From Oscillospiraceae bacterium (GTDB lineage: Bacteria; Bacillota; Clostridia; WRLR01), in the NCBI GenBank assembly GCA_009777515.1, contig WRLR01000002.1, forward strand, positions 1 to 64,000: a stretch of 64,000 bases of DNA, given 5' to 3'. The position numbers and the translations under genes were made by a program. Below are positions 5,923 through 63,840 of the stretch, one piece after another. The stretch's first letter is position 1. Each line of letters opens with the position of its first letter. The notes under the pieces were generated by a model that had not been told where the DNA came from, made no database searches, and was given only the letters and a program-made list of their open reading frames with translations.

Positions 5923-6900
5923 CGTCAGCCCTGAAATGAAATACTTCTGGAAAAACGGGTAGGAGCAGGCTATTGGCAGCACGACGATAACAACCAGCGC
6001 CATACGCGCCGACTCCGTGGGGATCCGCCCCCCGGACATCGTGGCGCTGAAAAAACTCGAGTTGCGGACGAGGAAATCGATGTTGCGCTCAATGCCGATC
6101 AACACGTATTGTAGCGGGTACATGTGGCTGTGGTCCGACTTCAAGTACAGCATGGCCTGGAACCAGTCGTTCCAATAGGCAAACGACAAAAACAGGCCGA
6201 TGGTCGCCAGCGCGGGCTTGGAGATCGGGATCACGATGCGGAAAAACGTCAAAAGCTGCGAAGCGCCGTCTATTTTCGCCGATTCGATGATGGAGTCAGG
6301 CACGGTCGTCTGGAAGAATGTGCGCAGGATGATTATGTAGAACGGCGTGACGGTAATGGGCAGTATCAGTGCGAAATAATTATTCAAAAGCCCCAAAATC
6401 TGCGTGTTGACCATGTACGAGGCCACCATACCGCCCGAAAACAGCATGGGGATGAAAATGACCATCGTATAAAGCTTTTTTAGCTTAAACGATGAGCGCG
6501 AGAGCACGTAGCCCATCGACGCGTTGAGCATCAGCCCAATCAACGTGCCAATCACGGTCACGCCGATAGAAACCATGAACGCCCGGCCTATGGTGTCGCC
6601 CGTGTTGGTCAGGTATGTATATGCCCCAGTCGTCAACTCAATCGGCAGGAACGAGTAGCCCACTTTTTGGATCGATGCGTCGGAAGAGATAGATATGATG
6701 GTGACGAACACCAGCGGGATGACGCAAATTAACGCCAGTACGATAAACAGCAGTGAAAATGCCGCGTTGGTCGGCGCCGAAATCCTGTTGAAAGCGCTAG
6801 TTTCGCTGCTGCTGCTTCCGCCGCCGCCCGACTTGCCGCCTCCGCTGCGCCAACCGCGCCCTTTTGCGGCCCGCGCCGCACCAATATTTCCAACTGACAT
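5902..6900 (-). CDS. Sugar ABC transporter permease (LplC/YtcP type)
   Basis: 332 residues with six predicted membrane helices starting near residue 45. The EAA loop that contacts the ATPase is clear: 'ESAKIDGASQLLTFFRIVIP'. The C-terminus 'YFISGLTIGAVKG' is typical of the second permease of LplABC-type importers. Unusual is the first 40 residues, a Gly/Ser-rich cytoplasmic tail ('GGGKSGGGGSSSS') absent from normal family members. The gene lies between the partner permease (upstream, 112 bases) and the lipoprotein (downstream, 146 bases), all on the minus strand. Confidence 0.92.
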   Translation of the reverse strand: MSVGNIGAARAAKGRGWRSGGGKSGGGGSSSSETSAFNRISAPTNAAFSLLFIVLALICVIPLVFVTIISISSDASIQKVGYSFLPIELTTGAYTYLTNTGDTIGRAFMVSIGVTVIGTLIGLMLNASMGYVLSRSSFKLKKLYTMVIFIPMLFSGGMVASYMVNTQILGLLNNYFALILPITVTPFYIIILRTFFQTTVPDSIIESAKIDGASQLLTFFRIVIPISKPALATIGLFLSFAYWNDWFQAMLYLKSDHSHMYPLQYVLIGIERNIDFLVRNSSFFSATMSGGRIPTESARMALVVIVVLPIACSYPFFQKYFISGLTIGAVKG

Positions 6901-7012
6901 GTATTGCCTCCATTTCTATCCGCTACGGACGGTAACAAGCCACGCTCTCGAGAGTCTGTCTGCTGCGGACGGCCACAGGCCGCCCGACCCCTTTGTGACC
7001 TCTTTATGCCGC

Positions 7013-8161
7013 TTAAAACAGCGAGCTCTCCGGGTTGAGTTTGCGCACGAGCCAGTTCGCACCCACAATCATAAACAGCCCCACAATCGACTGCGTGACG
7101 CTGGCCGCCGCCGCGAAACCGATGTTGTTCCGCTGGGTCAGCGCGTTATAGACATAGACGTCTATAGTCTGGGTCACGTCGTAGAGCGGCCCCGAACGCC
7201 TCGGCACATTGTAGAACAGGCCGAAGTCCGACGAGAATATGCGGCCGACGGCCAAAATGAGCATGATCGTGATGATGGGCGTCAGCAGCGGGAGCGTGAT
7301 GTTTTTGATCTGCTGCCATTTGGTCGCGCCGTCAATGGATGCAGCCTCGTAGAGGCTCGCGTCTATGCCGGTGATGCTGGCCAGGTACACGACCATCGAA
7401 TAGCCCATACCTTTCCAAATATTCACAATGACCAATAGGCCGGGCCAATACTGCGCCTGGGTGTACCACTGGATCGGGGAGAGCCCCATGTTTTTGAGTA
7501 TCTGGTTGACGAGCCCTTTGTCGACGCTGAGGAACGCGAACACGAAGTAGCCGACGACGACCCACGAAAGGAAGTGCGGCAAAAACATCAGCGTCTGGCA
7601 GAATTTTGCCAGCTTTGCCGAATATAATTGCGAAATCATGATGGCGAGCGTCACCGAAACCAAGACCCCGGAGAAGATGAAGACAAGGTTGTATAGCACG
7701 GTGTTGCGCATGATGATGTACGCGTCCGGCGTCCGGAACAAAAAGCTGAAATTTTCAAAGCCCACCCAGTCGCTCTTAAACAAGCTGTCAAAGAAATTCG
7801 CGCCCACCGGGCGGTAGCGTTTGAAGGCGATGATTATCCCAAACATCGGCAGGTAGGAAAATAGTATGAACCACACCACCACCGGCAGCCCTAAAAAGGC
7901 CAGCTCCACATTGTCCATGCCGAACCGCTGCCTTGGCCGTTCATACTTGCTCATCGCAACTGCCGGGCCTAAAGCGTCTAATGGATTCGTTGGGCTCGTA
8001 GCGCCCGATGCGCCTGCAGAACCAACTGAGCCCGCAGTTCCAACTGAGCTTGCCGAACCTGCCGCGCCTTTCGCGCCCGCCGCCCCTGCTGAATCCGCTA
8101 CGCTTGCCGCGCTCGCTTCGTCCGCCGCGCTGATCGTTTCTGTCGTTCTAAGTCCGCTCAT
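7013..8161 (-). CDS. Sugar ABC transporter permease (LplB/YteP type)
   Basis: 382 residues from the chosen ATG at 8161, which follows a GGGGG ribosome site; an upstream in-frame Met at 8311 has no such site. The first 75 residues are a low-complexity Ala/Gly/Ser/Val tail with repeated 'AGSVGSAGASGA'-like units, an expansion not expected in the family. The core starts at 'NVELAFLGLPVVVWFILFSYLPMFG', the usual first helix, and includes the EAA loop 'YEAASIDGATKWQQIKNITLP'. It pairs with the next permease to form the membrane channel, and is the first gene of the operon 8161-4082. Confidence 0.9.
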   Translation of the reverse strand: MSGLRTTETISAADEASAASVADSAGAAGAKGAAGSASSVGTAGSVGSAGASGATSPTNPLDALGPAVAMSKYERPRQRFGMDNVELAFLGLPVVVWFILFSYLPMFGIIIAFKRYRPVGANFFDSLFKSDWVGFENFSFLFRTPDAYIIMRNTVLYNLVFIFSGVLVSVTLAIMISQLYSAKLAKFCQTLMFLPHFLSWVVVGYFVFAFLSVDKGLVNQILKNMGLSPIQWYTQAQYWPGLLVIVNIWKGMGYSMVVYLASITGIDASLYEAASIDGATKWQQIKNITLPLLTPIITIMLILAVGRIFSSDFGLFYNVPRRSGPLYDVTQTIDVYVYNALTQRNNIGFAAAASVTQSIVGLFMIVGANWLVRKLNPESSLF

Positions 8162-8435: not shown

Positions 8436-8565
8436 TAAACGATTGTAAAAGTCGGTATTTTACGGGCGAACACTGTTCGCCACTACAACATTTTGTATAT
8501 ATGCAAAATTGGCTGCCCATATGTAGGGACGCACATTGTGCGTCTGCGGTTTTTACAATCGCCTA
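8436..8565. mobile_element. MITE-like element, copy 1
   Basis: About 130 bases, nearly identical to 40016-40143. The left end reads ACGATTGTAAAAG and the right end TTTTTACAATCGCCT, so the ends are inverted repeats (imperfect here, perfect in copy 2). Inside are two smaller palindromes: GGGCGAACACTGTTCGCC and GACGCACATTGTGCGTC. There is no coding capacity. The structure fits a non-autonomous miniature inverted-repeat element whose transposase source is outside the window. Confidence 0.72.
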
Positions 8566-8672: not shown

Positions 8673-8750
8673 CCCTGGGTACGCGGGCGTCCCGCCCGCC
8701 CCGGGTATGCAGGCATCCCGCCCGCCCTGGGTACGCGGGCGTCTCACCCG
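8673..8750. repeat. Three tandem 26-bp hairpin repeats
   Basis: Units at 8673-8698, 8699-8724 and 8725-8750 share CCCTGGGTACGCGGGCG and CCCGCCCG. Each unit can fold as GCGGGCG with CGCCCGC around a 3-base loop. The array ends 4 bases before the stop codon of the LuxR-family gene on the minus strand, so it will form consecutive hairpins in that transcript's 3' UTR. Confidence 0.75.
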
Positions 8751-8754
8751 CAGA

Positions 8755-12777: not shown

Positions 12778-15471
12778 CTAAGATGTAGTTTTCAGGTCAT
12801 CCAATATGACTGCTATGCGACGTGTCGCCGCGTCAAACTCCGATTCGGTAATTTTCACCTCCAGCCAGTGCATCAAATCGTCGTCGGCGCCGTCGTATAC
12901 ATAATTCAGTAGCTCGTAAAAATTTTCGATGTTTGTGATGTCATAATTTTCCAAGGCATTTGAAAGCTCCGTCAGTATGATGGTTTCAGCGGTTCTTTGT
13001 TTTGGCGTTTTCACTTTTTGGGCGCCTCTTTTTGTTGTAAACCAATCGTTTAGATTGCGCGTAAGCGCGTCCGTTTCGCGCAGCAGCGCCGGGTTCTTTT
13101 TCTGCACCCCATGCAGATCGCCTGTTTTCGCAGACGCCTCCAACGCTGCTGCCAGGGCCCTGACGCTTTCCGCGCCAATGCCGGCGCTCGCCCCTTTCAG
13201 CCCATGTACGTTGATTGCGTAATCGGAGAGTCCGCCCGACGATACTGAGCGCAGTTTATCAGCCACGACAGGCATGTTTTCGGCGTATGAGCGCAGTACG
13301 GACAGGTAGGTTTCCGCGTCGCCGGAGTACAGGGCCAGCCCGATCGCGGTGTCCAGCCCCGGCACCTTGGGCAACATATCCGCAGTGGTTGCTTTTGCTG
13401 CCACGGTTGCTTTAGCTGTAATGGCCGCCGCAGATGTCGTAGTTGCCGCGGCTGTCATAGCCGTATTTACTGCCATGGCAGCATTGGCCGCATCGGCTGC
13501 AGTAGCCGCCATAGCCGCCCATTGCTTTTCCTTTGCCTTGTCCCTGGCCCACCGCTTGACAATTATATCTAACTGTTTAAGCCCGATAGGTTTGGACAAA
13601 AAAGCCTGAAAGCCTTCGTTCAAAAACATTTCTTCATTCCCGGTAATCGCGTTTGCCGTGAGCGCGACGATGGGGACATTTTTCGCGTAATCCGTGCCAA
13701 TTTCCCTGATGTGCCGCATCGCTTCCATGCCGTCCATATTAGGCATCATATGATCCATGAATATCACATCGTATCGGACTTTCTCGGCAAGTACTGCGTC
13801 GATAGCTTCCTGGCCGCTTGAAACGCAGTCAATTTGCATTTCATACTGCTTCATCAAGCCTTTGGCGACGTCGAGATTTGTCGGTATATCGTCCACCACC
13901 AGCACTTTGGCGTACGGCAGCTTAACATACGAGAACTGGGATTCCTTTTTGCGCCTGTTGTCCGCATAGCGGAAGTTCTTTAAATTGTTCACGACGGCTT
14001 TGCCTATTTTGGCGTTTGTAACATGTTTTTGCCGAAATCTGACCGTGAAAATGCTACCGATCCCGTACTCGCTCTCCACCTCAATATAGCCGCCCATCGC
14101 TTCGAGCATTTTCTTTGTAATGGCCAGCCCCAGGCCAGTGCCTTCTATGTTGTGGTTGGCCTTCGCGTCCATTTGCGTATAGTCCAAAAACAGTTTTTCT
14201 ATGTCTTCGGGTTGAATGCCCTTGCCCGTGTCCTTGACCCAAGCCGTCACCCATACCGCGTCGTCGCCGCCGTCTCCGCCGCCGTTGCCACCGCCGTTAT
14301 CGCTACCGACGTTGTCGTTGCGGCCGTTGCCGCTGCCGTTGCCGCCGCCCTGTTCGCTTCGAATTTTCCGATCGCCGCGAACTGAATGTTCGCCGCGAAT
14401 TACACATTCGCTCCGGATGCCGAACTCCACTGTGCCTTTTTGCGTATATTTAAATGCATTTGATAATATATTGTTAAAAATCTGCTTGATTCTCAACTCG
14501 TCGCCGATCAAACGGGTAGGCATGTCGGCGCTGACGTCAAGAACGAACTCTATGGGCTTCTCGCCGATGCGCAGTATATTTTGTGTAATGGTGTCATTGA
14601 TGAGGCTGGGAATGTCATATTCGCCCTCGATCAATTCAAACTTGCCCGCTTCAATTTTGGATATATCCAATATGTCGTTAACGATATTTAATAACGTCGA
14701 GCCGGCGTTGTATATTTTTTCGAGATTACTCGTGGCCTCCTCGCCCAGCCCGTCTGTTTCCAAAATCAGCCCCGACAGGCCTATCACGGCACTGAGCGGG
14801 GTGCGCATTTCATGGCTCATGTGCGCCAAAAAATCGCTTTTTGCGTTGTTTGCAGCCTCCAGTTTGGTTTCGCTCCGGCGGATATCGTCCATCATCTTTT
14901 CCTGTTCGCGCATGTCACGAGCATACCCGGCGACAACGTATTCTCCTCCGAACGGCACCCTGACAAGCGTGACTTCCGTCGGGATCGGCGTCCCGTCCAA
15001 TGTCTGGTGCATCCAGTTCATGACGAGTCTGCCTTCTTCGAAGGCCTTTATTAGGCTCTCGGCGGCTTTTTCCGAAGATAGTTGCCCGTCCGGCTGGTAA
15101 AGGGGAGAGAACTTGTAGAAGCTATTTTTTATCTCGTATTTGTCCGAAATGTCAAACAGCCTGTTGTTTTCCTCATTGCAGTCAAACATGATAAAGTCTT
15201 TGTTCCACAAATGACAGGCAAGGGGCATCGCATCCAGCAGCAGCCGCGTGCGCTCATGCGCCTCGCGGAGCTGCTCGCCATGCGCTTCGCTGATCTGTTC
15301 GCCGTGCGCCTCGCTGATTTGTCCGCCGTACGCCTCGCGGAGCTGCTCGCCGTGCGTTTCTATATTATGCGTATCTACTTTGTACGTATCGGCCCCGTGT
15401 CTTTTGTTTATGTCTAGTTTATCCGCCCACTCGGCTGCTTTCTTTTTAGTCAGAGGGTATTTTATGTCCAT
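12778..15471 (-). CDS. Hybrid sensor histidine kinase with receiver and Hpt domains
   Basis: 897 residues from the ATG at 15471, chosen because GAAGGGTGG precedes it; an in-frame TTG at 15564 lacks a site. Order: 8-residue tandem repeats (about residues 38-72, 'GEQISEAH' units, likely coiled coil), PAS-like domain (75-190), HisKA with 'FLAHMSHEMRTPLS' (His near 220), HATPase with 'VKDTGKGI' and 'GTGLGLAI', receiver ('VLVVDDIPTN', 'DVIFMDHMMPNMDG'), and Hpt ('NVHGLKGAS'). No membrane helix is seen, so it should be cytosolic. A Gly/Asn/Asp-rich insertion splits the HATPase domain, and an Ala/Thr-rich linker joins receiver to Hpt. It probably feeds phosphate to the downstream HD-GYP regulator. 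Confidence 0.92.
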   Translation of the reverse strand: MDIKYPLTKKKAAEWADKLDINKRHGADTYKVDTHNIETHGEQLREAYGGQISEAHGEQISEAHGEQLREAHERTRLLLDAMPLACHLWNKDFIMFDCNEENNRLFDISDKYEIKNSFYKFSPLYQPDGQLSSEKAAESLIKAFEEGRLVMNWMHQTLDGTPIPTEVTLVRVPFGGEYVVAGYARDMREQEKMMDDIRRSETKLEAANNAKSDFLAHMSHEMRTPLSAVIGLSGLILETDGLGEEATSNLEKIYNAGSTLLNIVNDILDISKIEAGKFELIEGEYDIPSLINDTITQNILRIGEKPIEFVLDVSADMPTRLIGDELRIKQIFNNILSNAFKYTQKGTVEFGIRSECVIRGEHSVRGDRKIRSEQGGGNGSGNGRNDNVGSDNGGGNGGGDGGDDAVWVTAWVKDTGKGIQPEDIEKLFLDYTQMDAKANHNIEGTGLGLAITKKMLEAMGGYIEVESEYGIGSIFTVRFRQKHVTNAKIGKAVVNNLKNFRYADNRRKKESQFSYVKLPYAKVLVVDDIPTNLDVAKGLMKQYEMQIDCVSSGQEAIDAVLAEKVRYDVIFMDHMMPNMDGMEAMRHIREIGTDYAKNVPIVALTANAITGNEEMFLNEGFQAFLSKPIGLKQLDIIVKRWARDKAKEKQWAAMAATAADAANAAMAVNTAMTAAATTTSAAAITAKATVAAKATTADMLPKVPGLDTAIGLALYSGDAETYLSVLRSYAENMPVVADKLRSVSSGGLSDYAINVHGLKGASAGIGAESVRALAAALEASAKTGDLHGVQKKNPALLRETDALTRNLNDWFTTKRGAQKVKTPKQRTAETIILTELSNALENYDITNIENFYELLNYVYDGADDDLMHWLEVKITESEFDAATRRIAVILDDLKTTS

Positions 15472-15816
15472 ATGCGCGCCACCCTTCAATGCAATGTCAG
15501 TAACAATGTCAGTATCATTGTCAGCAGCAATGACAGCAATAATATCGATATATATTATTAACAATCAGCTCGTAGGCGAAAGTCTCCCTTTATTATAATA
15601 CAAGCTATTTTTATTATTTGTTACACCCACAACCATAAAAAATGTATCGCGAAATACAGCCATCAGTAATGAATATGAAACGGAGAGCACCAAAACACCG
15701 CCAAACCAAGTATTCGCAAGGCTTAGCGCGCATAACGCTTGAAGCAATTTAAGTGAAAACACCAAAAATCTGCTTAATTGCATGAAATTTTTGAATATGA
15801 ATAATACTTTTGATAT
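15472..15816. other. Gene-free interval upstream of the histidine kinase
   Basis: A TATAAT hexamer on the minus strand at 15592-15597 is the likely -10 of the kinase operon, giving a leader of about 115 bases; no good -35 was found. A 72-codon minus-strand ORF here lacks a ribosome site and family resemblance. The stretch between 15600 and 15816 is otherwise empty apart from the 3' leader of LuxR paralogue 2. Confidence 0.5.
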
Positions 15817-19751: not shown

Positions 19752-20051
19752 AGTGTTTAACCTCCCCCAAATCCCCTATCGCCCGCATTCGTAGGGGCGA
19801 CGCTTGCTACGCCCGCGTATTTTGGGCGCGCCGCTTGCTGCGCCCGCCGCTTACTGCGCCCGCCGCTTACTGCGCCCAATAAATATTATACCAAATACCA
19901 TTCCATACCATAGCCGGGACGCTTGAGCCGGGCGCATTGGCGTTGTTTTGGTTCAAATCGCGTTTATATAAGGATTTATGTGATAAATATACATTAATAA
20001 TATGCATTCGTTAATGTTTGCTTTGACTATTATTTTTTAGGTGCAACTAAT
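19752..20051. other. Divergent intergenic region with short repeats
   Basis: Separates the minus-strand URO-D-like gene from the plus-strand GGDEF gene. It holds the 19791-19877 GC-rich repeat and an AT-rich part (19960-20040) that probably contains the promoter of the GGDEF gene; no convincing hexamer pair was read. Confidence 0.5.
19791..19877. repeat. GC-rich 'GTAGGGGCG' leader plus 15-bp tandem units
   Basis: The stretch starts with GTAGGGGCGACGCTTGCTAC and continues with repeated CGCCGCTTACTGCGCC units (two exact, two degenerate). The GTAGGG(G/A)CG motif recurs at several other intergenic sites here. Confidence 0.6.
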
Positions 20052-22004
20052 TTGGCGAATACAGACAGCTTACCCGCGACAAATGAAAACGCGGGCACAA
20101 ATACGAGAGGCGCCGTTGGGACAGTGCAAAATACCGAAATGGCGAGAGGCGTTGAAATAACGCGAGACGCCGTCGGAGTGGCGCCAAATGCCGGTACGAC
20201 GCGAGGTTTCATCGGGGCGGCGCTTAACACCGGCACGGCGTATAGATCCGGGTTTCGGTGGCGGCTGCACAAAAAAAACGGGATAGCCATACGCTTTCTC
20301 AATATCAATTTGTTGCTATTCGCGCTGGCCATTTGCATCATGGCAACGGTCATGGCTGTGGCATATTCCGCTGTCATAGGCAACCTGTCGTCGGAATACG
20401 CGGCGCGCTACGGCGCCGGCGCCGCCGACACGTTGAGCGCGCGCGTCGACAAAGAAATCATACTAATATCTAAAACGGCCCGATCCAGCGAAGTCATCGC
20501 ATGGATGCTCGACGAGGACGACGCCGAGAAAAAATCGCTGGCGTTCACGGAACTGGAAGACGTCGTCGGTGAGCTGTACAGCTTCAACATATATATCGGC
20601 CTCAATAAATCGCTACTCGAATACAGGATAGAAGTCGACAACCCGGTAGGGGACTTTTCGTATGTCGCCGCGCTCAGCAGGGACAAACCGGAAGATGAAT
20701 GGTATTTTGACTGCATCGAGTCGGACAGCGATTATCAGGTTCTAGTCGGGATCGATAACGTACTGAATAAAAAACGTGTGTTCATTAACCACAAAGTGGA
20801 GCTGGACGGCGCTGCCCTGGGCGTCATTAGCACGGGGCTTGAGTTCTCCCATATAGCGGGCGAGCTTTTTTCCCAATATGACGACTATAACCTGCGCGGG
20901 CTCGTCATCGACGGCGGCGGCGCCATCCATATGGACAGCGACTTGCTAGACGACAGGGATTTTTTGCACCATGAATTTGAGTCCACAATTGAGGACGCCT
21001 TCGCTGGCGCCGCGCCCCTGTCCGCCATTAGGACATATTTAGACGGCGCTGCGGGCGGTAATGCGGGCGGCGCTACGGGCGGTAATGCGGGCGGTAATAC
21101 GGGCGGCAATGCGGGATCGGATATAGGCGTCGGCGCGGGCGTGGGCGGCGGGCAGCTTGCGCCGGTCAGGCTGCGCACAGGCCCATACAAATATATGGCA
21201 ATCGCCCCTGTTCTAGACACGGACTGGTATGTCGTGATTCTGTCCGGCACGCCGTCGCTGTTCGACTTGTCGCTGTTCATCCCAGTCATGCTTACCATGC
21301 TCGTATTGTTGATAGCGTTCGCCCTGGCCGCCAGCGCCGCCAACTATAGGCTCATACTGCTGCCGTTGGGGAAACTCGACCACAGCCTGGCGCTCCTGAA
21401 AGAAAACAGCGAGATGCAGATATACGGAGCGGACCGCGACGATGAGCTGGGGAACTTGTCGAACACCATTCAGGATTTGTTCAACAAGGCAAATATTGAC
21501 ACGCTTACCGGCATATATAACAGGCGTTTTATGGAAAACAACCTGGTGCACATAATGGAGATTTTGTCGCGCGCCAACGGCATGCTGAGCACGTTGATGA
21601 TCGATATAGACTTTTTTAAGAGGTTCAACGACACTTATGGCCACGATCAGGGCGATATATGCCTGCGTGAAGTCGCGGGCACGCTGGCATCGGGCGTGAC
21701 CAGGGCGAACGACTTTACAGCGCGTTACGGCGGCGAAGAATTTGTCGTCGTCCTCCCCAACACCGACGAGGCCGGTGCACGCGTCGTAGCGGAAAAACTG
21801 TTGAACAACGTGCGCGGACTGGATATACCTCATTCCGGGGGCATCGATGGCACGCCGTACGTGACGGTTTCCATTGGCGTGACGACTGGGCGGGTCTCGT
21901 TCATGCATTGCTGGGAGGACTACATAAGACAAGCCGACAAAGCGCTGTACGCCTCAAAGCAAAACGGCCGCAACCAATACACCTACATGGCGCTGACCAA
22001 ATAG
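20052..22004 (+). CDS. Membrane GGDEF protein, probable diguanylate cyclase
   Basis: 650 residues from a TTG start. Residues 1-70 are a low-complexity cytoplasmic tail; helix 1 is around residues 85-110 ('LNINLLLFALAICIMATVMAV'), an extracytoplasmic Cache-like sensor follows to about 400, then helix 2 ('LFIPVMLTMLVLLIAFALAA') and a GGDEF domain from about residue 480. The active-site loop reads 'RYGGEEF', the catalytic form, with 'DIDFFKRFNDTYGHDQGD' for metal and nucleotide binding, so it should make cyclic di-GMP from GTP. A Gly/Asn repeat ('GGNAGGATGGNAGGN') is inserted in the sensor. It is the synthetic counterpart to the HD-GYP protein about 8 kb away. Confidence 0.9.
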   Translation: MANTDSLPATNENAGTNTRGAVGTVQNTEMARGVEITRDAVGVAPNAGTTRGFIGAALNTGTAYRSGFRWRLHKKNGIAIRFLNINLLLFALAICIMATVMAVAYSAVIGNLSSEYAARYGAGAADTLSARVDKEIILISKTARSSEVIAWMLDEDDAEKKSLAFTELEDVVGELYSFNIYIGLNKSLLEYRIEVDNPVGDFSYVAALSRDKPEDEWYFDCIESDSDYQVLVGIDNVLNKKRVFINHKVELDGAALGVISTGLEFSHIAGELFSQYDDYNLRGLVIDGGGAIHMDSDLLDDRDFLHHEFESTIEDAFAGAAPLSAIRTYLDGAAGGNAGGATGGNAGGNTGGNAGSDIGVGAGVGGGQLAPVRLRTGPYKYMAIAPVLDTDWYVVILSGTPSLFDLSLFIPVMLTMLVLLIAFALAASAANYRLILLPLGKLDHSLALLKENSEMQIYGADRDDELGNLSNTIQDLFNKANIDTLTGIYNRRFMENNLVHIMEILSRANGMLSTLMIDIDFFKRFNDTYGHDQGDICLREVAGTLASGVTRANDFTARYGGEEFVVVLPNTDEAGARVVAEKLLNNVRGLDIPHSGGIDGTPYVTVSIGVTTGRVSFMHCWEDYIRQADKALYASKQNGRNQYTYMALTK

Positions 22005-22030
22005 GATACATATAAACAAGCAAGTCCAAT

Positions 22031-22133
22031 AAAATACATGTCAGCATACATATCCATTAATATACATGACAGCATGCATAACAATTAAGATACACGTCAG
22101 CATACATTTCAGTTAGCATACATATCAGTATTG
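22031..22133. repeat. 28-bp tandem repeat, about 3.7 units
   Basis: Units at 22031-22058, 22059-22086, 22087-22114 and a partial one to 22133 share ATACATGTCAGCATACAT. It is AT-rich, unlike the GC-rich arrays elsewhere, and occupies most of the gap between the GGDEF gene and the next gene. Confidence 0.75.
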
Positions 22134-22738: not shown

Positions 22739-23695
22739 ATGATAATCGACATCCACACGCATGTTTTTCCCGACGATATCGCCCGCGGTACTATACGCAT
22801 GCTTTCGGAGAAAACAGGCAATAAATATGAGCTCTCGGGCGACGGCACGGTGTCTACATTGTTAAAAAATATGGACGATTGGGGTATTGATGTCTCCGTA
22901 GTCCAGCCGGTCGTCACAAAGCAGTCGCAGACGCGCAAGGTCAACGAATGGGCTGCCGCCATTACCGCTGTATCGGCGAAGGCATGGGCGGCTGCCGAAA
23001 AGGCGGGCGGGGCGGGCAGAGCAGGTAAGCCAGGTAAGCCAGGTGAGTCGGTCGGATCAGTCGGATCAGTCGGATCGGGCGGAACTGGCAATTCGAGCAA
23101 GGTAGGCAAGGTAGGCAAGGTAGGCAAGCCAAGCGGGCTGATTAGTTTTGGCGGTATTTATCCGCATTCCAGCGATTACATGGACGATATCGACTTTGTC
23201 GTAGGGCTTGGGCTGCGGGGGTTGAAATTCCATGCGGAATACCAGAATTTCGTACTGGACGACGACCACATGCTGAGGGTATACGACTACGCCCTGAGCA
23301 AAGGTTTGGTATTGCTGCACCACGCCGGCTTCGACCCGGGCTACCCGCCGCCATTTAAAAGCTCGCCGCAACAGTTCGCGCGCGTCGCCAAGGCAATGGG
23401 CGGCGGCGTCATCATTGCCGCCCACCTGGGCGGGCACGACCAATGGGACGACGTTGAGCGCCATTTAGTAGGAAGCGGCATATATCTTGACACGTCGATG
23501 GGGTTCGAGTTCTTCCCTCGCGATCAATTTTTACGCATCGTAAAAACACACGGCGCGGACAAAATCCTGTTCGGCTCGGACGCCCCTTGGAGCAACGCTG
23601 GTAAAGAGATCGCCAACCTTAGAGCCATGCCCCTCGGCGCAGACGAAATCGACGCCATATTGGGCGGCAATGCCGCTAGGATACTGAGCCTATAA
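22739..23695 (+). CDS. Amidohydrolase (amidohydrolase-2 family) with repeat insertion
   Basis: 318 residues from the ATG giving 'MIIDIHTHVFPD', the metal-binding HxH strand of the TIM-barrel; a GTG 18 bases earlier is the alternative start. Further ligands are visible: 'GLKFHAEYQ', 'VLLHHAGFDPG', 'IIAAHLGGHDQWDD' and 'ILFGSDAPWSN' with the final Asp. This fits the ACMSD/2-pyrone-dicarboxylate type of metal hydrolase or decarboxylase. Between residues about 75 and 130 lies a Gly/Lys/Ser low-complexity insert ('GKPGKPGESVGSVGSVGS') encoded by 9-base direct repeats (GGATCAGTC, GTAGGCAAG), between the first strand region and 'GLISFGGIYPH', a loop in relatives. Confidence 0.85.
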   Translation: MIIDIHTHVFPDDIARGTIRMLSEKTGNKYELSGDGTVSTLLKNMDDWGIDVSVVQPVVTKQSQTRKVNEWAAAITAVSAKAWAAAEKAGGAGRAGKPGKPGESVGSVGSVGSGGTGNSSKVGKVGKVGKPSGLISFGGIYPHSSDYMDDIDFVVGLGLRGLKFHAEYQNFVLDDDHMLRVYDYALSKGLVLLHHAGFDPGYPPPFKSSPQQFARVAKAMGGGVIIAAHLGGHDQWDDVERHLVGSGIYLDTSMGFEFFPRDQFLRIVKTHGADKILFGSDAPWSNAGKEIANLRAMPLGADEIDAILGGNAARILSL

Positions 23696-27448: not shown

Positions 27449-28444
27449 GTGAAAAATGTTTTGATACCTGAATGGATTGGTGAGGAAGGCGAAAAGATGC
27501 TTCATGGGCGCGTCAATGTTTTGCGCTGCGACGGCGTGGACGAGTTGTCGTTATGCGCCGCAGTGGCGGAAGCGGATGGCATCGTGCTACGCTCGCGGGC
27601 GCGCATAACAGAAGCTGTGCTAAAAAGCGCGCCTCGCCTGCGTGTGGTTTCGCGCACGGGCGTCGGTATTGACAATATAGATGTAGAAGCCTGCACGCGC
27701 CACGGCGTCATGGTCTGCTATCTGCCGGGCATGAACGCCTACGCGGTTGCAGAGCATGCGATGGCCCTCATGCTGGCGCTGCTCAAATGCCTGCCGGCCA
27801 TGGATCGCGCCATGCGAAGCATACGCGGCGGCGGCGAGGGCACTGGAGAGGGCAGCGGCAGCGGCGGCGGCTGGGACATCCGCCTCAAAAATCTACCGCA
27901 AGACACCTACGGAAAAGTGCTTGGCATATTAGGGCTCGGTCGCATCGGACGCGAGGTGGCGGATCGGGCCCGCGTGTTCGGGATGAAGACCATAGGCTAC
28001 GATCCGTATGTGAAGCAGATAGACGGCGTCGAGTGGATGGAACCGGACGAGGTCGTCGCAAGCGCGGACGTATTGACGCTGCACCTTCCGGAATCGGAGC
28101 AAACGCGCCGTTTCATGGACGGCGGGCGCATAGCGCGCATGAAGCCCACGGCGTACTTGATAAACACCAGTCGGGGGGGCGTCGTCGATCAGGCCGCCCT
28201 GGCTCAGGCGCTAAAAGAGGGGCGCATCGCGGGCGCGGCGCTCGATGTGTACGAGGACGAGCCGCCGGCGGCGGGCGACGCGCTGCTCGCGCTGGACAAT
28301 GTCATCCTGACGCCGCATGTAGCGGCCCTCACCGAGCAGTGCGGCGCCGCGATGATGCGCGAGGCGGTGTGGTTGTTGTTGGCCGCCCTGGACGGCGAGG
28401 CCGTTCCGCCGATGTATATAGCCAACGCGGCAGCGTTTACATAA
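27449..28444 (+). CDS. D-isomer-specific 2-hydroxyacid dehydrogenase (phosphoglycerate dehydrogenase-like)
   Basis: 331 residues from a GTG start after GAAAGGA. The substrate-binding half has 'LRVVSRTGVGIDNIDVEA'; the NAD-binding half has 'GILGLGRIGREVADRARVFGMKTIGYDPY' (GxGxxG then Asp, favouring NAD). Catalytic residues: Arg in 'INTSRGGVVDQ', Glu in 'DVYEDEPP' and His in 'LTPHVAALTEQ'. A Gly/Glu/Ser insert ('GGGEGTGEGSGSGGGW', about residues 129-144) is placed between the domain-connecting helix and the Rossmann domain, where family members have none. It heads a unit with a cupin, an aldehyde dehydrogenase and xylulokinase, so a role in sugar-acid breakdown is more likely than serine synthesis. 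Confidence 0.87.
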   Translation: MKNVLIPEWIGEEGEKMLHGRVNVLRCDGVDELSLCAAVAEADGIVLRSRARITEAVLKSAPRLRVVSRTGVGIDNIDVEACTRHGVMVCYLPGMNAYAVAEHAMALMLALLKCLPAMDRAMRSIRGGGEGTGEGSGSGGGWDIRLKNLPQDTYGKVLGILGLGRIGREVADRARVFGMKTIGYDPYVKQIDGVEWMEPDEVVASADVLTLHLPESEQTRRFMDGGRIARMKPTAYLINTSRGGVVDQAALAQALKEGRIAGAALDVYEDEPPAAGDALLALDNVILTPHVAALTEQCGAAMMREAVWLLLAALDGEAVPPMYIANAAAFT

Positions 28445-47316: not shown

Positions 47317-47500
47317 GGACGTTTTTCTTGTGCTGTGATTCCAAGCACAAAAGAACCGTTCCCCTTTGTTTGTGTAAGGGCGACTTCAGGTTGCAACTTC
47401 ATATGGCGGCTTCAGGTTGCGGTTTCAGGCGGCTCCTTCAGGCGGCTCCTTCAGACGGCTCCTTCAGACGGCTTCAGGTGGCTGCCTTAGGCGATTGCCC
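47317..47500. repeat. Palindromic 'GAACCGTTCCCC' repeat followed by 13-15 bp GGCGGCTTCAG array
   Basis: AGGGGACGTTTTTCTTGTGCT and AGCACAAAAGAACCGTTCCCCT (about 47317-47370) form a long imperfect hairpin between convergent genes, usable as a two-way terminator. From 47388 to 47480 follow units of GGCGGCTCCTTCA and GACGGCTTCAGG. The right end, GGCGATTGCCCCTACGAG, supplies the stop codon (TAG in GTAGGGG) of the URO-D-like gene. Confidence 0.65.
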
Positions 47501-48777: not shown

Positions 48778-51700
48778 ATGTCTGACATCGAACCGGCTGA
48801 CGGGTTCGCCGCTGCAGCGTCAAGCGCCGGCCTATTTAACAGGGACATAGACGAGGCAGCCATATCAGAGGCCATGTTTTTGGCATACTCCCCTTTTTTT
48901 TCCGGCGTGCGCAATAAAAAGAAATGCCAAAAAGCTATAATTAAGGCGGCTAAGTCTATTGCCGGCGACGTTAACTGGAACAAGTTGAAAAAAAACAGCG
49001 TCGCTTTGTCGCGCGACGGCATTTTGATGGATTTTTTCGGCGGGGCCAACGGCGCGTCCGTGCCGCTGCTGATCGATGCAGCAATGAACCCACGGCCCGC
49101 GTTCCAAAAGGAGAGCAGGGATCTGTGTTTCGCGCAATGGGTCGAGGCATGCGGCTTGCTCGAATCCATCGAAGGCGCAGACGATGCATTGCGGTATTCT
49201 TTTCGTATTATCTATAGGCACTTGGAAGGCATCAAAGGTTTTTTCAACTCTGCAGATCAGCAAATAGTCCATCGGGCTGCAGAGCAGCGGGCCATTGCGC
49301 TATATGCGCTAATTGACAGAGTAGCGCCCGAAAAAGGCTCATTCCTTGAATACGTGCGCGCTTTATCCCAAAAAGTCGACCAGGCGGATGGAGCGGGGCT
49401 ATTTCAATATTCCAGCGTCAAGCTGCCCCTCGTGGGGCGCGGCGTGGAAATGCTGGAGCTGAAAAGATTCTGTTTCTCCGACAAGCAATTGTCGTGGTGG
49501 TCAGTGTCGGGGCGGGGCGGGGCAGGTAAAAGCAGGCTTGCGTCCGAACTGTGCCGCAGCATAATGGCGGATCGCGGCGCCTGGTATTGTGTTTTTTTAC
49601 CATATGATTTTTTTGCCATCGCGAAAATTTTTAATAACAACTGGCAGTTGGATCGGAATCTTCTCGCCGTCGTCGACTCGCCCGGGTTCTATAGCGGCAA
49701 AGTCGGCGAATGGTTAAAACAACTCATTGAATCGGATAGCGTAAACAGGAAAATACGGCTGCTGATACTGGAACGCGAAGCGGCATCCGGCGGCGCCACC
49801 TCGGAAGACAGTCCGCCAAGTGGGAGGTTGCCCGATGGGCCGCCCATCGGGTCGCCTAACAAGCCGTCAAACGGGTCGCAAGGCAGGCTGTCCAGCGGAA
49901 TGTATCATGAGCCGTCTAACAAGCCGCTTAGCGTGCCACCTAGCGTGCCGCTTAGCGTGCCACCTAGCGTGCCACCTAGCGTGCCGCCCAGCGGGCTTCG
50001 GTTCGGGCTTCCTATTTGGATGCGCAAATTGGTAGAGGCGATTGATATAAATGTCCTCGCCGCCCTCTGCCACACAAGAGATTTTACGCCTTTAACGCTG
50101 TACGCCCCGGATTATTCAGACTGCCTGAACACCATTGAAATGGTGGGGCGCGACAGCCCAGCCATCAAGACTACCGGCCCCTGGATAGCCGACATGTGGA
50201 TGAAGTGCGATCCGGATTTTACCCATCCGTTGATTTTATCGATGATAATTTTTGCAATGGCGCATCATATTGATATCGCTTCGTGTAGGAGCCTCCCGCA
50301 GTTATTGGAAGCGTTATATGCTTATGAGTTGAATCTTATATTGACGAAAAACGGCAATGATACCGCAGTAACCGCAAATGACGCCGGTGTCACTGATAAC
50401 GCTGATGGCGCCGATGGCGCCGATGGTGTTGATAGCGTTGATGCCGCCACATCCGCCGCTACCACTGCCATTGCCACTACCAACACCGCTGCCGCTGCCG
50501 CTGCCACCGCCACCAACACCGACTCCGACTCCGCCTCTGCCGAAGCCTCTGCCACCGCCGCCACCGCCGCCAACGCAGCCAACGCAGCCAACGCCGTGCG
50601 TTCGCTCGCATTCGACGTCATAACGTCGGGGGCAGCTTCGGCCACTGCAGACGAGCATGACTTGTTCGGCGCATACTTCGTCATGAAAGCATTAAAAACA
50701 TATAACGGCAAAGGTTCCGGCGGCATATCCGCGATAGGAAAAGCGTGGGCCAGCCATGCGCCCGCAACGGCCAATTTCCTATATCGCATGATCGACGATT
50801 ATTACCGTGAATTCGCATTATTTGATTTAATAGCCGATACTAATATATTATATGAAATACCGGCGTCGGCGAAGCCAGGCAAAAATGCCGATGTAAACGC
50901 AGTCGCCGACGGAAACGCGGAAGCCAGCGCCGACATCAACGAAAGTTCCGACGCCAGCGCCGACATCAGCGAAAGTGCCGACGCCAGAGCCAACGCCAGT
51001 GCCGATTCCGGCGTAAACGCCGAAGCCGGCGCGCTGTATAGCGAGCTGATGGTGTATCTATCCACGCTCCAAGACGAAGCGGGGATTGACGCTACGGTAG
51101 AGCGCCTTGAAGAACTCCGCTCCGGGGGCTATTCGCAGGACAGAAAAATCACGCTCGGGCTGGCGCAGGTTTTGTTTAACCTCGCCGCCACGCGCAAAAG
51201 CGCCGCCGGCATAGCTGAAGCCGCTGCGCGGTTCGCGAAATTGCGGAACGAGGGTTTCTCGCATGACAACGAGATCACGCTTAGATTATATAAGACACTT
51301 TACAATCTATTGTTATATCAGGACTGGGCAGATAGAAAGGATACGGTGTTTTTAATGGATGAGTTACGAAACCAAGGGTTCGAATATGACAGGGACATGG
51401 CGCTGATACTGGCGCAGTCATTGTTTATACTAACTGCGAAGCAAGACGAGGAAGGCATCGCCAACACCGTGGAGCGCATGGAACGCCTGCGGAACCAAGG
51501 TTTTGAACAGGACAGGGACATAACGCTGGAACTAATCAAGGCGCTCTTGAACCTGACAACCAAGCAAGACGGGGCGGGGCGCAAAGAAACGGTCTCGCGT
51601 ATGGAGCTCTTGCGGGGTCAGGGCTTTGCGCGGGACAGGGACATAACGCTGGAATTGATGAAAGCGATGCTGAACCTCACCATCAGGCAGGATGAAGCCG

Positions 51701-52797
51701 GGACGGAAGAAACGGTGCTGCGAATTGAAGAACTGCGCGCCCAGGGGTACGGGGGCGACAAGGACATGGCGCTGGTGATGGCGCAGGCGCTGCTGAACCT
51801 GACCACAAAACAGGACGAAGCGGGTATCGTCAAAACCGTGGCGCGGATGGAAACGCTGCGCAACCAAGGGTTTGAGGGCGACAGGGACATAACGCTGGAG
51901 TTGTCCACGGCTTTGTTCAACCTGTCGACGCACCAGGACGAAACCGGCATCATAAAGACCGTTACGCGGCTGGAGGAGCTGCGCGGCGCCGGTTTTAAAG
52001 AGGACAGGGACATCACGCTCAGATTGGCGCAAGCCTTTTTCAGTTTGACCACAAAACCTGGAGCCGCGCTGCGCAAGGGCGCGTCGGCCCGGATTGACTC
52101 GCTGCGCACCCAGGGCGGCTTCGAACGGGACAGGGATATAACGCTGGCGCTGGTCAAATCGTTGTACAACCTCACTATCGAACAGGATTCCGAGGGGACG
52201 AGGGAGACTGTGACGCGGATTGAAGAGATTTGCAACCAAGGCTACGCGCAGGACAAGGAAATAAAACTGCTATTCGCAAAGTCGTTGTTCAACCTGACCA
52301 CAAAACTGGACGAGACCGGGATAGAAGAAACCGTGACACGGCTCGAAACCTTGCGCAACCTTGACTATGCTTCGGATAATGCCCCGGATAACACCCCTGA
52401 TAATGCCCCGGATAATACCCCGGATAATACCCTGGATAATGCTCTTGATCAAGCTAAGACACATGGTCCGGTTCAAAATGAGACTCAAAACCAAACTCAA
52501 GATCAATCTCTAAATCAGGCTCTATATCAGGCTCAAAATCAAGCTCTAGATCAGGCTCAAAATCAAGCTCTAAATCAGGTTCAAAGTCAGGCACAAGATC
52601 AAACTCAAGATCAGGTTGAGACTCCGGATCAGGGCCTGGTTCAGGCGCCTGAACAGGTTCCGGTCCACTCTTCGGATCAGGATCATGCTCAAGATCAAAA
52701 TCTAGTCCAAAACAAAGCGCAAGATCAGACTAAGGCCCAAGAAAGAGGCCAGAAAAGGTTCGTAAAAAAAGGTCAGTCACAAGATCAGGCAACGTAA
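48778..52797 (+). CDS. STAND-like NTPase with eleven 41-residue helical repeats
   Basis: 1,339 residues. N-terminal domain of unknown kind (about 1-210); then 'LPLVGRGVEMLELKRF' and Walker A 'SGRGGAGKS' (near 245), Walker B-like 'LLAVVDSP', sensor-like 'IRLLILEREA' near 330, the arrangement of STAND NTPases (NB-ARC/NACHT relatives). Three low-complexity inserts (Pro/Ser/Gly at about 342-410; Asp/Ala/Thr at 520-605; Asn/Ser/Ala at 700-750) break it up. Residues 753-1200 are eleven repeats of about 41 residues ('LELxKALLNLTTKQDEAGxx', then 'ETVxRMExLRxQGFxxDRDIT'), two helices each, TPR-like. A 140-residue Asn/Gln/Asp tail ends it. No membrane helix. By analogy the repeats sense a ligand and the NTPase oligomerises; the effector, if the N-domain is one, is unrecognised. 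Confidence 0.78.
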   Translation: MSDIEPADGFAAAASSAGLFNRDIDEAAISEAMFLAYSPFFSGVRNKKKCQKAIIKAAKSIAGDVNWNKLKKNSVALSRDGILMDFFGGANGASVPLLIDAAMNPRPAFQKESRDLCFAQWVEACGLLESIEGADDALRYSFRIIYRHLEGIKGFFNSADQQIVHRAAEQRAIALYALIDRVAPEKGSFLEYVRALSQKVDQADGAGLFQYSSVKLPLVGRGVEMLELKRFCFSDKQLSWWSVSGRGGAGKSRLASELCRSIMADRGAWYCVFLPYDFFAIAKIFNNNWQLDRNLLAVVDSPGFYSGKVGEWLKQLIESDSVNRKIRLLILEREAASGGATSEDSPPSGRLPDGPPIGSPNKPSNGSQGRLSSGMYHEPSNKPLSVPPSVPLSVPPSVPPSVPPSGLRFGLPIWMRKLVEAIDINVLAALCHTRDFTPLTLYAPDYSDCLNTIEMVGRDSPAIKTTGPWIADMWMKCDPDFTHPLILSMIIFAMAHHIDIASCRSLPQLLEALYAYELNLILTKNGNDTAVTANDAGVTDNADGADGADGVDSVDAATSAATTAIATTNTAAAAAATATNTDSDSASAEASATAATAANAANAANAVRSLAFDVITSGAASATADEHDLFGAYFVMKALKTYNGKGSGGISAIGKAWASHAPATANFLYRMIDDYYREFALFDLIADTNILYEIPASAKPGKNADVNAVADGNAEASADINESSDASADISESADARANASADSGVNAEAGALYSELMVYLSTLQDEAGIDATVERLEELRSGGYSQDRKITLGLAQVLFNLAATRKSAAGIAEAAARFAKLRNEGFSHDNEITLRLYKTLYNLLLYQDWADRKDTVFLMDELRNQGFEYDRDMALILAQSLFILTAKQDEEGIANTVERMERLRNQGFEQDRDITLELIKALLNLTTKQDGAGRKETVSRMELLRGQGFARDRDITLELMKAMLNLTIRQDEAGTEETVLRIEELRAQGYGGDKDMALVMAQALLNLTTKQDEAGIVKTVARMETLRNQGFEGDRDITLELSTALFNLSTHQDETGIIKTVTRLEELRGAGFKEDRDITLRLAQAFFSLTTKPGAALRKGASARIDSLRTQGGFERDRDITLALVKSLYNLTIEQDSEGTRETVTRIEEICNQGYAQDKEIKLLFAKSLFNLTTKLDETGIEETVTRLETLRNLDYASDNAPDNTPDNAPDNTPDNTLDNALDQAKTHGPVQNETQNQTQDQSLNQALYQAQNQALDQAQNQALNQVQSQAQDQTQDQVETPDQGLVQAPEQVPVHSSDQDHAQDQNLVQNKAQDQTKAQERGQKRFVKKGQSQDQAT
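51034..52377 (+). repeat. Eleven in-frame tandem units of 123 bp (41 residues)
   Basis: Unit starts include 51034, 51154, 51280 and 51403, then every 123 bases with one extra codon in units 2 and 9 and one fewer in unit 1. The central units are most alike at DNA level (GACAGGGACATAACGCTGG recurs), the outer ones diverge, consistent with growth from the middle. All units keep the reading frame. Confidence 0.88.
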
Positions 52798-59955: not shown

Positions 59956-61524
59956 GTGATAACAGACAACAATATGACCGTGCTTTTTTTGACTTTGGGC
60001 TGCAAGGTCAACCAATACGATTCAGGCTCGCTGCTGAACTTGCTGTGCTCCAGGGGCTTCCTGCCATATGCTGCCGACGACACAGCACGCGGCCCGGATG
60101 CAATGATCGTCAATACATGTATTGTATCGTCGGAGAGCGAGCGGAAGTCCCGTCAAGCAATACGTAGAATGCGAGCCCGATACCCTCAGGCACTGCTCGT
60201 GGTCGTCGGGTGCTATCCCCAGAGATTTCCAAAACAAGCGGCAAGCATCGACGGCGTTGATATGATCGCGGGCACATCGGGGCACCCGGCGCTGGCCGAC
60301 GATATTGTCGCGCGGTTAAACGCCAATAAGAGTGGCCTTGGCGGCCGACGAGCCGATGATAAGTTTAATTACAAGCCGGATCGCACCCGAGCCTACATAA
60401 AAATCCAGGACGGCTGCGACAGTTTTTGCAGTTACTGCATTGTCCCCTATACGCGTGGGCGAGCCGCGAGCCGCGAACTGCCGTTGATCATGCAGGAGAT
60501 CGACGCAGTCGTATTAAAAGGCGCCCCGGAGATCGTACTGACGGGGATTCATATATCTTCTTATCGATATGAGTATGAACAAGTTATACCTGCGTGCGGC
60601 GGGAAGCCCGAAGTTTCGGCAGCCGGGCTTGGCGATCTAGTCTGCCTCGCCGCCGAGCGCATGAAGTCGGCGGCTGCCAAGCGCAAAGGGCCGCTTGTAA
60701 GCGGGGTCGGCGAGAGCGAGCCGGACGTCGCGTACAATACATCCCAAAACCATGAATGCCCGCGTATAAGGCTCAGCTCCATTGAACCTACTATAATCAC
60801 AAGCGATTTTGTCAAACGCCTGGCAGAAATCCGCGACATATTATGCCCGCATTTCCATTTGCCATTGCAAAGCGGCTGCGCGTCCACCTTGATGCGCATG
60901 AACCGCCATTATACACCCGACGATTACTACGCAGCGGTTTCGCTGCTGCGACGCGAATTCCCTGAGGCAGGGATAACAACGGACGTCATAGCCGGGTTCC
61001 CTGGCGAGAGCGAATCTGATTTTATGGAGACATATAATTTTTGCCGGCGGACAGCGTTTTCCGGTATGCACATATTCCCATATTCCGTGCGCCCCGGCAC
61101 GCCAGCGGCGGATTTTACTGATCCTGTACCGCAAGCCGACAGGCGCGAGCGAGTCAGGCGCTTGATCGCTCTCTCAGGCGAACTCTCGATGGCCTTTCAT
61201 CGCCGCCACATTGGCAAGGCCGTTCCCTTCCTGATAGAGGATGTGACAGGAGGCTTCGCTGAGGGGCTTACGGGTAATTATATAAAAGTCCACGCAAAAA
61301 TATCATGCGCTGACGCGAGCGCTAGCAGTGGCGCAAGCGGGGGCGCGGGCGGGGACGTAAGCCGGGAACCGGGCAGAGATACAAGCAGGGGCTCGGACGC
61401 AGTCGCCAGCGGTTCCCGCGCCGGATCGCCCGCTGCCCCGAAAACTGCGAAGCGCGGCTCGTATGCCTCCGTCCTGGTTACGGACGCGACACCCACGCAC
61501 ATATTGGGTAATTTATTAGAGTAA
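59956..61524 (+). CDS. mtaB: tRNA (N6-threonylcarbamoyladenosine-37) methylthiotransferase
   Basis: 522 residues from a GTG (an ATG six codons later is possible), against about 430-450 for the family. 'LFLTLGCKVNQYDSG', 'VNTCIVSSESERKSRQ' and 'VVGCYPQ' supply the three N-terminal cluster Cys; 'IQDGCDSFCSYCIVPYTRG' holds the radical-SAM CxxxCxxC; 'HLPLQSGCASTLMRMNRHYT' and a TRAM end ('GNYIKVHAKI') complete it. It adds a methylthio group to t6A37 in ANN-decoding tRNAs. 'LGCKVNQY' is characteristic of MtaB rather than MiaB. About 50 extra residues follow 'HISSYRYEYEQV' in the radical-SAM barrel, and a Ser/Gly/Asp/Arg insert of about 45 residues interrupts the TRAM domain near 455-500. Confidence 0.9.
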   Translation: MITDNNMTVLFLTLGCKVNQYDSGSLLNLLCSRGFLPYAADDTARGPDAMIVNTCIVSSESERKSRQAIRRMRARYPQALLVVVGCYPQRFPKQAASIDGVDMIAGTSGHPALADDIVARLNANKSGLGGRRADDKFNYKPDRTRAYIKIQDGCDSFCSYCIVPYTRGRAASRELPLIMQEIDAVVLKGAPEIVLTGIHISSYRYEYEQVIPACGGKPEVSAAGLGDLVCLAAERMKSAAAKRKGPLVSGVGESEPDVAYNTSQNHECPRIRLSSIEPTIITSDFVKRLAEIRDILCPHFHLPLQSGCASTLMRMNRHYTPDDYYAAVSLLRREFPEAGITTDVIAGFPGESESDFMETYNFCRRTAFSGMHIFPYSVRPGTPAADFTDPVPQADRRERVRRLIALSGELSMAFHRRHIGKAVPFLIEDVTGGFAEGLTGNYIKVHAKISCADASASSGASGGAGGDVSREPGRDTSRGSDAVASGSRAGSPAAPKTAKRGSYASVLVTDATPTHILGNLLE

Positions 61525-62679: not shown

Positions 62680-63265
62680 CGATATCATCATCTTGATTGA
62701 TGAAAACGGTAGCGAGGTAGAGGCGGAATATGTTGATACGATTGAGTATCGCGGAAATAGCTATATCGTACTGCTTCCAAAAGAAGATGACACGCATGAA
62801 CATTCCCACGAGCATACGCATGAACATGTTCACGAACATACTCACGAACATACGGACGACTGCGACTGCGAGACGGAAGTTATTATTCTAAAGGTCGAGC
62901 AGGGCACGGGCGGCGAAGACGACACGTTTGTCGCCATCGATGATGAAGACGAACAGGACGCCGTATTTGACATTTTTACACAGCGCATGGAAGCTTCCGA
63001 ATATGACTTCGATGACGACGGCGACGACGAGTACGAAAGCGACGACGACGAAGAAGACGACGGCGACGGCACAAGCAGTAAAAGCGCCGACATCGATAAT
63101 GACGGCAGCAACGGCAGCGACGGCAGCTATAGCGACAACGGCGACGATGAAGATGGCAGTGGCGATGGCCTCAACGACGACGATAACGCTGGGGACGGCG
63201 ACGGCTCCGACATAAGCGCCGACGACAACTCCGGCGCCGAGCCCGGCGGCAAAGCCAAAACTTAA
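62663..63265 (+). CDS. DUF1292 protein with His-rich insert and acidic tail
   Basis: 200 residues from the ATG at 62663, which has AGGAGGG upstream. The DUF1292 core is split: 'DDIIILIDENGSEVEAEYVDTIEYRGNSYIVLLP' and, after an insert, 'CETEVIILKVEQGTGGEDDTFVAIDDEDEQDAVFDIFTQRM'. Usual length is about 90-100. The insert (about residues 43-64) is a repeated T-H-E-H pattern with ten or so His, which would bind Zn, Ni or similar metal. After residue 105 a 95-residue Asp/Ser/Gly/Asn tail follows. DUF1292 function is unknown. It lies in the ireB-ruvX block and overlaps the end of ispF by 4 bases, tail to tail. Confidence 0.9.
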   Translation: MSGDNDDIIILIDENGSEVEAEYVDTIEYRGNSYIVLLPKEDDTHEHSHEHTHEHVHEHTHEHTDDCDCETEVIILKVEQGTGGEDDTFVAIDDEDEQDAVFDIFTQRMEASEYDFDDDGDDEYESDDDEEDDGDGTSSKSADIDNDGSNGSDGSYSDNGDDEDGSGDGLNDDDNAGDGDGSDISADDNSGAEPGGKAKT

Positions 63266-63840
63266 CGCGCGCCGCCGGAAATGGGCATGGCGCCAAATTC
63301 GGCGGTCAATACGCACAACGCCTGTATACCCAGGCCCCTGCCAAAATCCGTCAGCCCCTCGCCGCTGGTCGCGGTTATGCACACGCTACCCATATCTATG
63401 CCGACGATATCCGCAATATGTTGCCTCATCTCCATGATCCTCGGCGAAATCGATGGACGCAAGCATTCGATAGAAAATGATATGTGGGCGATCCTGCCGC
63501 CCGCGAGGTGCTTCATCGCTTCTTTAACATAGGCGGCGCTGTCCGTGACGCCATCTTCCTTGCACATCCGATCTGCAACAGCTCCTAATATATTAACGCC
63601 CGTGACGCCCGATATCGCATTGCACAAAGCGTGCAATACCACGTCCGCGTCGCTATTGCCGGCCAGCGGCGGAGCGTCGAAAAACTCAACCCCTCCCAGC
63701 AGAAGCGCCCGCCCCCCCGCGCCGCCAATGCCGCCCGCACCACTCATACCCTCCGCGCCACAAACGCCGCCCACGCCGCTCTCATCCCCAACGCTGAAAA
63801 ACCTGTGCGAGTCCTGCCCTATAGCCACTTTTAAATGCAT
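63262..63840 (-). CDS. ispF: 2-C-methyl-D-erythritol 2,4-cyclodiphosphate synthase, divergent type
   Basis: 192 residues from the ATG at 63840 (GGGGTGG upstream); the usual length is about 158. 'AIGQDSHRF' carries the DxH zinc ligands, 'LAGNSDADVVLHALCNAI' the substrate loop and third ligand. The family's usual 'LFPD' and 'TTTEKLGF' segments are replaced by 'GAVADRMCKEDGVTDSAAY' and 'ITATSGEGLTDFGRG', a variant I associate from memory with chlamydial-type IspF. A Gly-rich insert of about 30 residues ('GVGGVCGAEGMSGAGG' region) sits right after the first metal motif, before 'LLLGGVEF'. It acts in the MEP isoprenoid pathway. Transcribed towards the DUF1292 gene. Confidence 0.88.
   Translation of the reverse strand: MHLKVAIGQDSHRFFSVGDESGVGGVCGAEGMSGAGGIGGAGGRALLLGGVEFFDAPPLAGNSDADVVLHALCNAISGVTGVNILGAVADRMCKEDGVTDSAAYVKEAMKHLAGGRIAHISFSIECLRPSISPRIMEMRQHIADIVGIDMGSVCITATSGEGLTDFGRGLGIQALCVLTAEFGAMPISGGAR

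Follow-up and report, generated by a model that had tools for sequence, protein, structure and literature searches.

Low-complexity inserts in core enzymes of a bacterial family and their probable origin in micro-tandem duplication

The window analyzed here comprises 64,000 nucleotides (positions 1 to 64,000 of contig WRLR01000002.1, Oscillospiraceae bacterium) from a 4.54-Mb metagenome-assembled genome (MAG; G000) of 272 contigs, which is 91% complete and 7.5% contaminated. Judging from its named MtaB relatives, all of them distant, the genome probably belongs to the class Clostridia. Many of its proteins contain low-complexity stretches, and several of these interrupt conserved enzyme domains. 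We found that this trait of repeat-made inserts extends beyond the window to the rest of the genome and to two further genera of the same uncultured clostridial family (G001 and G002; no two genomes share a genus). It is probably best explained by micro-tandem duplication, with reading frame and fold acting as the filter. A scripted entropy scan of the window translations (24-residue filter) yielded 21 low-complexity segments, recovering nearly every position given in an earlier note on this DNA. Tandem Repeats Finder (TRF) returned 72 rows, which merged into 37 arrays, whereas an order-3 Markov simulation of this stretch gave none. The note had described the DNA under the segments as often being short tandem repeat. 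In a recoding test, local 8-mer recurrence in the segment DNA was compared with that in synonymous recodings of the identical peptide. The recurrence was 0.209 for the window segments and 0.064 after recoding, and 11 of the 21 segments were above expectation at p<0.05.

The note had treated all its stretches as insertions. This held for IspF, MtaB (two regions) and the ATPase region of a histidine kinase, where conserved domains are truly interrupted, and failed for the permease, LacI and DUF1292 tails, the lipoprotein linker and the N-terminal extension of PfkB. In IspF (gene 63262–63861, minus strand), a Gly-rich insert of 26 residues (63685–63792) lies directly after the DxH motif and before the RALLLGG strand. 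It is missing in 27/27 IspF sequences from other families and shows no remaining DNA repeat in the recoding test. The insert is demonstrated for G000. In G001, a suggestive sign is that the IspF match likewise begins at position 13; the match in G002 has no large internal insert. MtaB (plus strand) carries 13+13+17 extra residues of complex sequence in the radical-SAM core (60577–60762) and a Ser/Gly/Ala-rich insert of about 46 residues in its C-terminal part (61300–61450), the latter seen in both alignment and translation. These insertions are real, with an insert of at least 10 residues in 0/28 controls, although the first group is not of low complexity; the PDB alignment breaks at residues 207/269. 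The histidine kinase (gene 12778–15564, minus strand) has a Gly/Asn/Asp-rich insert at 14242–14361 with a 12-bp array (14259–14297), and its Pfam HATPase_c match begins only after the insert, at profile position 37.

Two further stretches are probably true domain insertions as well. The amidohydrolase insert (22946–23140, plus strand; TRF and entropy) consists of different perfect 9-bp arrays side by side, with units present two to three times: GGTAAGCCA, (GTCGGATCA)x3 and (GTAGGCAAG)x3. The Pfam Amidohydro_2 match starts only after it. Perfect coding arrays lie, for example, at 23051–23128 in this insert and at 50551–50596 in the STAND-like protein described below. In the 2-hydroxyacid dehydrogenase, a GGGEGTGEGSGSGGG stretch (27830–27880, plus strand) stands ahead of the NAD-binding domain match (Pfam 2-Hacid_dh_C from residue 140, profile position 21); it is too short for the 24-residue filter, yet visible in the translation.

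To place these insertions in a wider context, core enzymes of the three family genomes were aligned with orthologues from other clostridial families (MutS, LeuS, MurD, MtaB, Mfd and IspF; 9–30 orthologues each). A blastp count of indels between the sampled genomes had yielded few orthologous pairs, and these targeted alignments were used instead. Unshared inserts of at least 10 residues occurred in 11/11 family sequences and in 5/112 control sequences, where the largest measured 25 residues. The note had called such a density of inserts in core enzymes unusual for a bacterium. Per 100 core positions, MurD contained 15, 8 and 38 inserted residues and Mfd 17, 16 and 13 (G000, G001 and G002, respectively), MutS 13 (from a partial sequence) and 4.7, LeuS 11.5, MtaB 21 and IspF 17. 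The insert sites of MurD, MutS and Mfd are shared between the genera, yet sequence and length differ. MurD is the clearest case: the inserts flank one conserved stretch in all three genera, with totals of 37, 67 and 169 residues and unrelated sequences. In these alignments, the sites recur only within the family, and unrelated genera do not share the inserts. MutS has inserts at model positions 190–215 in G000 and G001, and the G002 assembly breaks there. PolA of G000 contains long Gly/Ser/Glu-rich stretches, flanked by its 5' nuclease part and its polymerase part. As side observations, the G002 MutS is split over contigs C126 and C268 and its PolA over C337 and C249, close to where inserts would be expected, which looks like a break of the assembly at repeats; a second PolA-like frame in G000 (contig C106, 11654–13345) has one internal TAG and represents a pseudogene or contamination.

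AlphaFold2 models were built from the core alignments for IspF and MurD. The mean pLDDT (predicted local distance difference test) values were 87 and 82, respectively, with cores at about 90; values fell below 50 at IspF residues 23–39 and at MurD residues 260–274 and 297–338. The inserts of both enzymes are therefore predicted to form disordered loops on intact folds, the location expected of slippage-grown regions.

The trait is not confined to the window. In 400 kb of the remaining genome, TRF detected 194 arrays, as compared with 3 in the order-3 Markov simulation. Coding arrays per 100 kb numbered 48 in the window, 36 in the genome, 61 in G002 and 19 in G001. For other clostridial families the values were 1.5–4.3 (G026, G038, G012 and G005), 8.5 (G036) and 12 (G018); G004 gave 19, on only 16 kb. 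Proteins of at least 300 residues with an internal array showed the same pattern, with 69/206 in G000, 36/58 in G002 and 16/62 in G001, versus 0–2 per genome in G026, G005, G038 and G012, 7/57 in G036 and 9/84 in G018. G036 bears on the possibility that the segments are an ordinary outcome of fairly high G+C content combined with many linkers, rather than a special trait of the lineage. This control (G+C 60%) also has low-complexity segments in 37% of its called proteins, but with hardly any DNA repeats: it has few arrays (12 versus 1 simulated), its DNA recurrence is near zero and its MurD is free of large inserts. We consider this explanation very unlikely. As entropy alone is inflated in such a G+C-rich genome, the assessment relied instead on array counts, on the recoding test and on inserts in core enzymes.

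The reading frame was informative about the origin of the arrays. For open reading frames (ORFs) of at least 300 residues in which the array took up less than 20% of the ORF length, the unit length was divisible by three in 112/115 coding arrays (97%), as opposed to 20/52 intergenic arrays (38%; Fisher p=2e-17). This contrast indicates that arrays arise everywhere and that selection removes those that break the frame. The codons gave a second line of evidence. Across the segments of G000, 8-mer recurrence was 0.149 as compared with 0.053 after recoding, with 50/131 segments at p<0.05. This roughly threefold excess over synonymous recoding means that the DNA is more repetitive than the peptide requires, as expected of slippage-grown low-complexity regions. 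The intergenic arrays are near the intergenic background in base composition; the Ala/Gly/Ser/Thr bias within genes therefore looks like a selective filter at the protein level. Together, the frame, codon and composition tests served to tell a mutational origin apart from selection acting on the composition of the peptide. The frame result also bears on an assembly or binning artefact, which might be suspected for MAGs of many contigs, in which repeats are difficult to assemble. We regard it as barely credible, given that 97% of the coding cases are in frame and that three separate genomes have inserts at the same protein sites.

The earlier note had offered two interpretations, replication slippage tolerated in surface loops and a lineage-wide mobile micro-repeat. 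The first is supported by the frame contrast between coding and intergenic arrays, the DNA repetition exceeding peptide needs and the low-confidence loops in IspF and MurD; the second was not supported. Rickettsia palindromic elements are dispersed palindromic families that add in-frame sequence inside bacterial genes, and an element of this kind, inserting into genes, could in principle have produced the inserts. Among 110 coding arrays (outside the gene with the Thr-Pro linker described below), 17 matched elsewhere at E≤1e-4, as compared with 2/115 random regions, one of which matched an unrelated dispersed element. However, all 17 matches are short and of simple-repeat type, and different genes have different units, which points to convergent simple units and not to one mobile sequence. 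No single dispersed sequence family occupying many genes was found among the 110 coding arrays. The genome does carry a dispersed palindromic element of 126 bp, but it is separate from the arrays and mostly intergenic. A mobile origin is largely refuted and, in our judgment, highly improbable. The dispersed element of about 126 bp lies at 8440–8565 and 40019–40144 in the window. Its ends are inverted (CGATTGTAAAA...TTTTACAATCG) and its core, CGGGCGAACACTGTTCGCC, is palindromic; it resembles a miniature inverted-repeat transposable element or a repetitive extragenic palindrome. About eight copies are present in 464 kb of G000, its core motif is intergenic in 11/12 cases, and none was found in the G001 and G002 samples.

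The remaining segments of the window include linkers, tails and further repeat inserts. The histidine kinase has an Ala/Thr/Met-rich linker past the receiver domain (13372–13548; Pfam and entropy). The sensor region of a GGDEF protein (gene 20052–22004) contains a GGNAGG-type repeat insert at 21024–21155 (plus strand; 24-bp x3 array, recoding p=0.016). In the SLH-dipeptidase (gene 25593–27389, plus strand), an Ala/Gly-rich insert with a 15-bp array is found in the SLH part (25908–26027), and a linker with a 30-bp x2 array connects the SLH repeats with the peptidase M19 domain (26355–26450). The STAND-like protein (gene 48778–52797, plus strand) has five low-complexity segments within 49906–52617. 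These include an (SVPP)n insert (49906–50013; 24-bp x3, with an 8-mer recurrence of 0.57 versus an expected 0.06), an Ala/Asp/Thr-rich insert with several 9-bp and 24-bp arrays (50350–50619), a 30-bp repeat insert (50905–51012; TRF and entropy) and C-terminal (DNxP)n and (QAQN)n repeats with 12- and 36-bp units (52369–52617). Entropy scanning also marked the N-terminal tails of two ABC permeases (6790–6891 and 7985–8143, both minus strand) and a Gly/Gln segment in the C-terminal tail of a LacI-family regulator (39836–39907, plus strand). The Ala/Thr linker of a solute-binding protein (36269–36532, minus strand; TRF and entropy) follows the lipobox, an ordinary linker site. The DUF1292 protein ends in a His-Glu repeat and an acidic Asp/Ser C-tail (62777–63238, plus strand; TRF, Pfam and entropy). 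The PfkB stretch falls below the entropy filter and is an N-terminal extension, with the Pfam domain starting from residue 108 and an uncertain start codon.

A very long Thr-Pro repeat linker (43849–45411, plus strand; TRF) represents an ordinary surface linker. The LRR_5/SLH surface protein that contains it (40273–46263) has 1996 residues with LRR_5, cohesin, YDG and SLH domains, the linker accounting for about 500 residues. TRF also located intergenic arrays whose units are not multiples of three, at 8673–8751 (26-bp x3), 19829–19877 (16-bp x3.1), 22025–22128 (28-bp x3.7) and 47424–47473 (13-bp x3.8). Upstream of a cupin gene, a 33-bp array of 5.6 copies occupies 28453–28637; the ORF call spans the array, and the true start is probably downstream.

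We propose that small tandem duplications, with units of about 9–40 bp in 2–5 copies, would occur at a high rate everywhere in this genome, in genes and between them. The mutational step may be slippage of the strands, or their misalignment where short direct repeats occur. Within genes, only in-frame copies in surface loops, linkers or tails would persist, and the proteins would gather disordered Ala/Gly/Ser/Thr-rich stretches that quickly grow, shrink and decay. The adjoining 9-bp arrays of the amidohydrolase insert illustrate this clearly. The process is presumably ongoing and the inserts may be mostly neutral. Alternatively, the inserts may be retained for a function (solubility, condensates, interaction or habitat adaptation), with the DNA repetition being secondary. 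Identical sites are filled in different genera, the residues are small and disorder-prone, and many segments have no DNA repetition, all of which would suit such retention. Insert sequence and length nevertheless vary between genera, the DNA repetition is above the synonymous expectation, and intergenic arrays with units not divisible by three are abundant too; we hold functional retention to be unlikely.

Several points weigh against micro-tandem duplication as the explanation. About half of the window segments, IspF among them, have no DNA repetition beyond chance, which suggests that some inserts are old or retained by selection on the peptide, and same-site retention in different genera could mean function. 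The family was compared through one genome from each of three genera, so that copy-number change was not observed. Longest-ORF gene calling biases towards arrays with units divisible by three, a bias that the restriction on ORF and array length lessens but does not remove entirely. Finally, the contamination of the MAG itself amounts to 7.5%.

Inspection of the repair genes showed that none of the three family genomes has RecG, whereas 9/9 controls do. A strong RecG match was lacking in 14/118 genomes, with other Clostridia, G023 and the small f6 genomes among them, although several of these are incomplete. Within this group, the MutS or MtaB matches of G023 and G007 are free of large inserts. 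Expansion of a 7-kb repeat in E. coli was little affected by a recG null on its own, while polA raised it (PMC2656507). Because RecG is also lacking in some genomes where no large inserts are seen, and in view of the E. coli result, its loss is only a weak lead as the cause of the inserts. Each of the three family genomes possesses MutS, MutL, PolA and XseA, which speaks against loss of these genes as the cause; RecJ is present in two. A tentative possibility is that a replication and repair set-up altered family-wide (RecG absent; MutS, Mfd and PolA insert-bearing) continually makes micro-tandem duplications, which might turn the family into a natural generator of new disordered regions in its essential proteins.

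Bacterial core enzymes are usually compact, and here tens of disordered residues are tolerated in a tRNA synthetase as well as in enzymes of the cell wall, of mismatch repair and of isoprenoid synthesis. The family thereby offers an insertion scan of essential proteins made by nature, and a bacterium-based system for studying the origin of disordered regions and the mutational machinery that limits it. Domain searches and gene annotation are liable to fragment such insert-bearing proteins.

Searches of the open-access literature turned up no bacterial family described as having a comparable insert load in core enzymes. The closest known systems each differ in some respects. Rickettsia palindromic elements likewise make in-frame additions in bacterial genes, but as dispersed shared families, whereas no common unit was found here. 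Plasmodium proteins also have low-complexity inserts within conserved enzymes (PMC11260460, PMC2705789); these are eukaryotic, A+T-driven and Asn-rich, in contrast to the bacterial, Ala/Gly/Ser/Thr-rich inserts at a G+C content of 54–63%. Borg elements contain genome-wide tandem repeats with units that are mostly unique per site, divisible by three in ORFs and in 14–38% of intergenic cases, and these repeats create disordered regions (Schoelmerich et al. 2023, PMC9879509). These features, the frame rule included, are common to both systems, with units divisible by three in 112/115 coding and 38% of intergenic arrays here. Borgs, however, are archaeal extrachromosomal elements and not bacterial genomes. 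Their repeats are perfect, while ours are imperfect (median match 82% in coding and 87% in intergenic arrays), and their units are A-rich, as compared with coding arrays of 22% A, 34% G and 32% C. Borg repeats are often found in extracellular or membrane proteins, whereas the inserts described here lie inside core cytoplasmic enzymes. The family represents a bacterial counterpart of the Plasmodium inserts and the archaeal Borg repeats.

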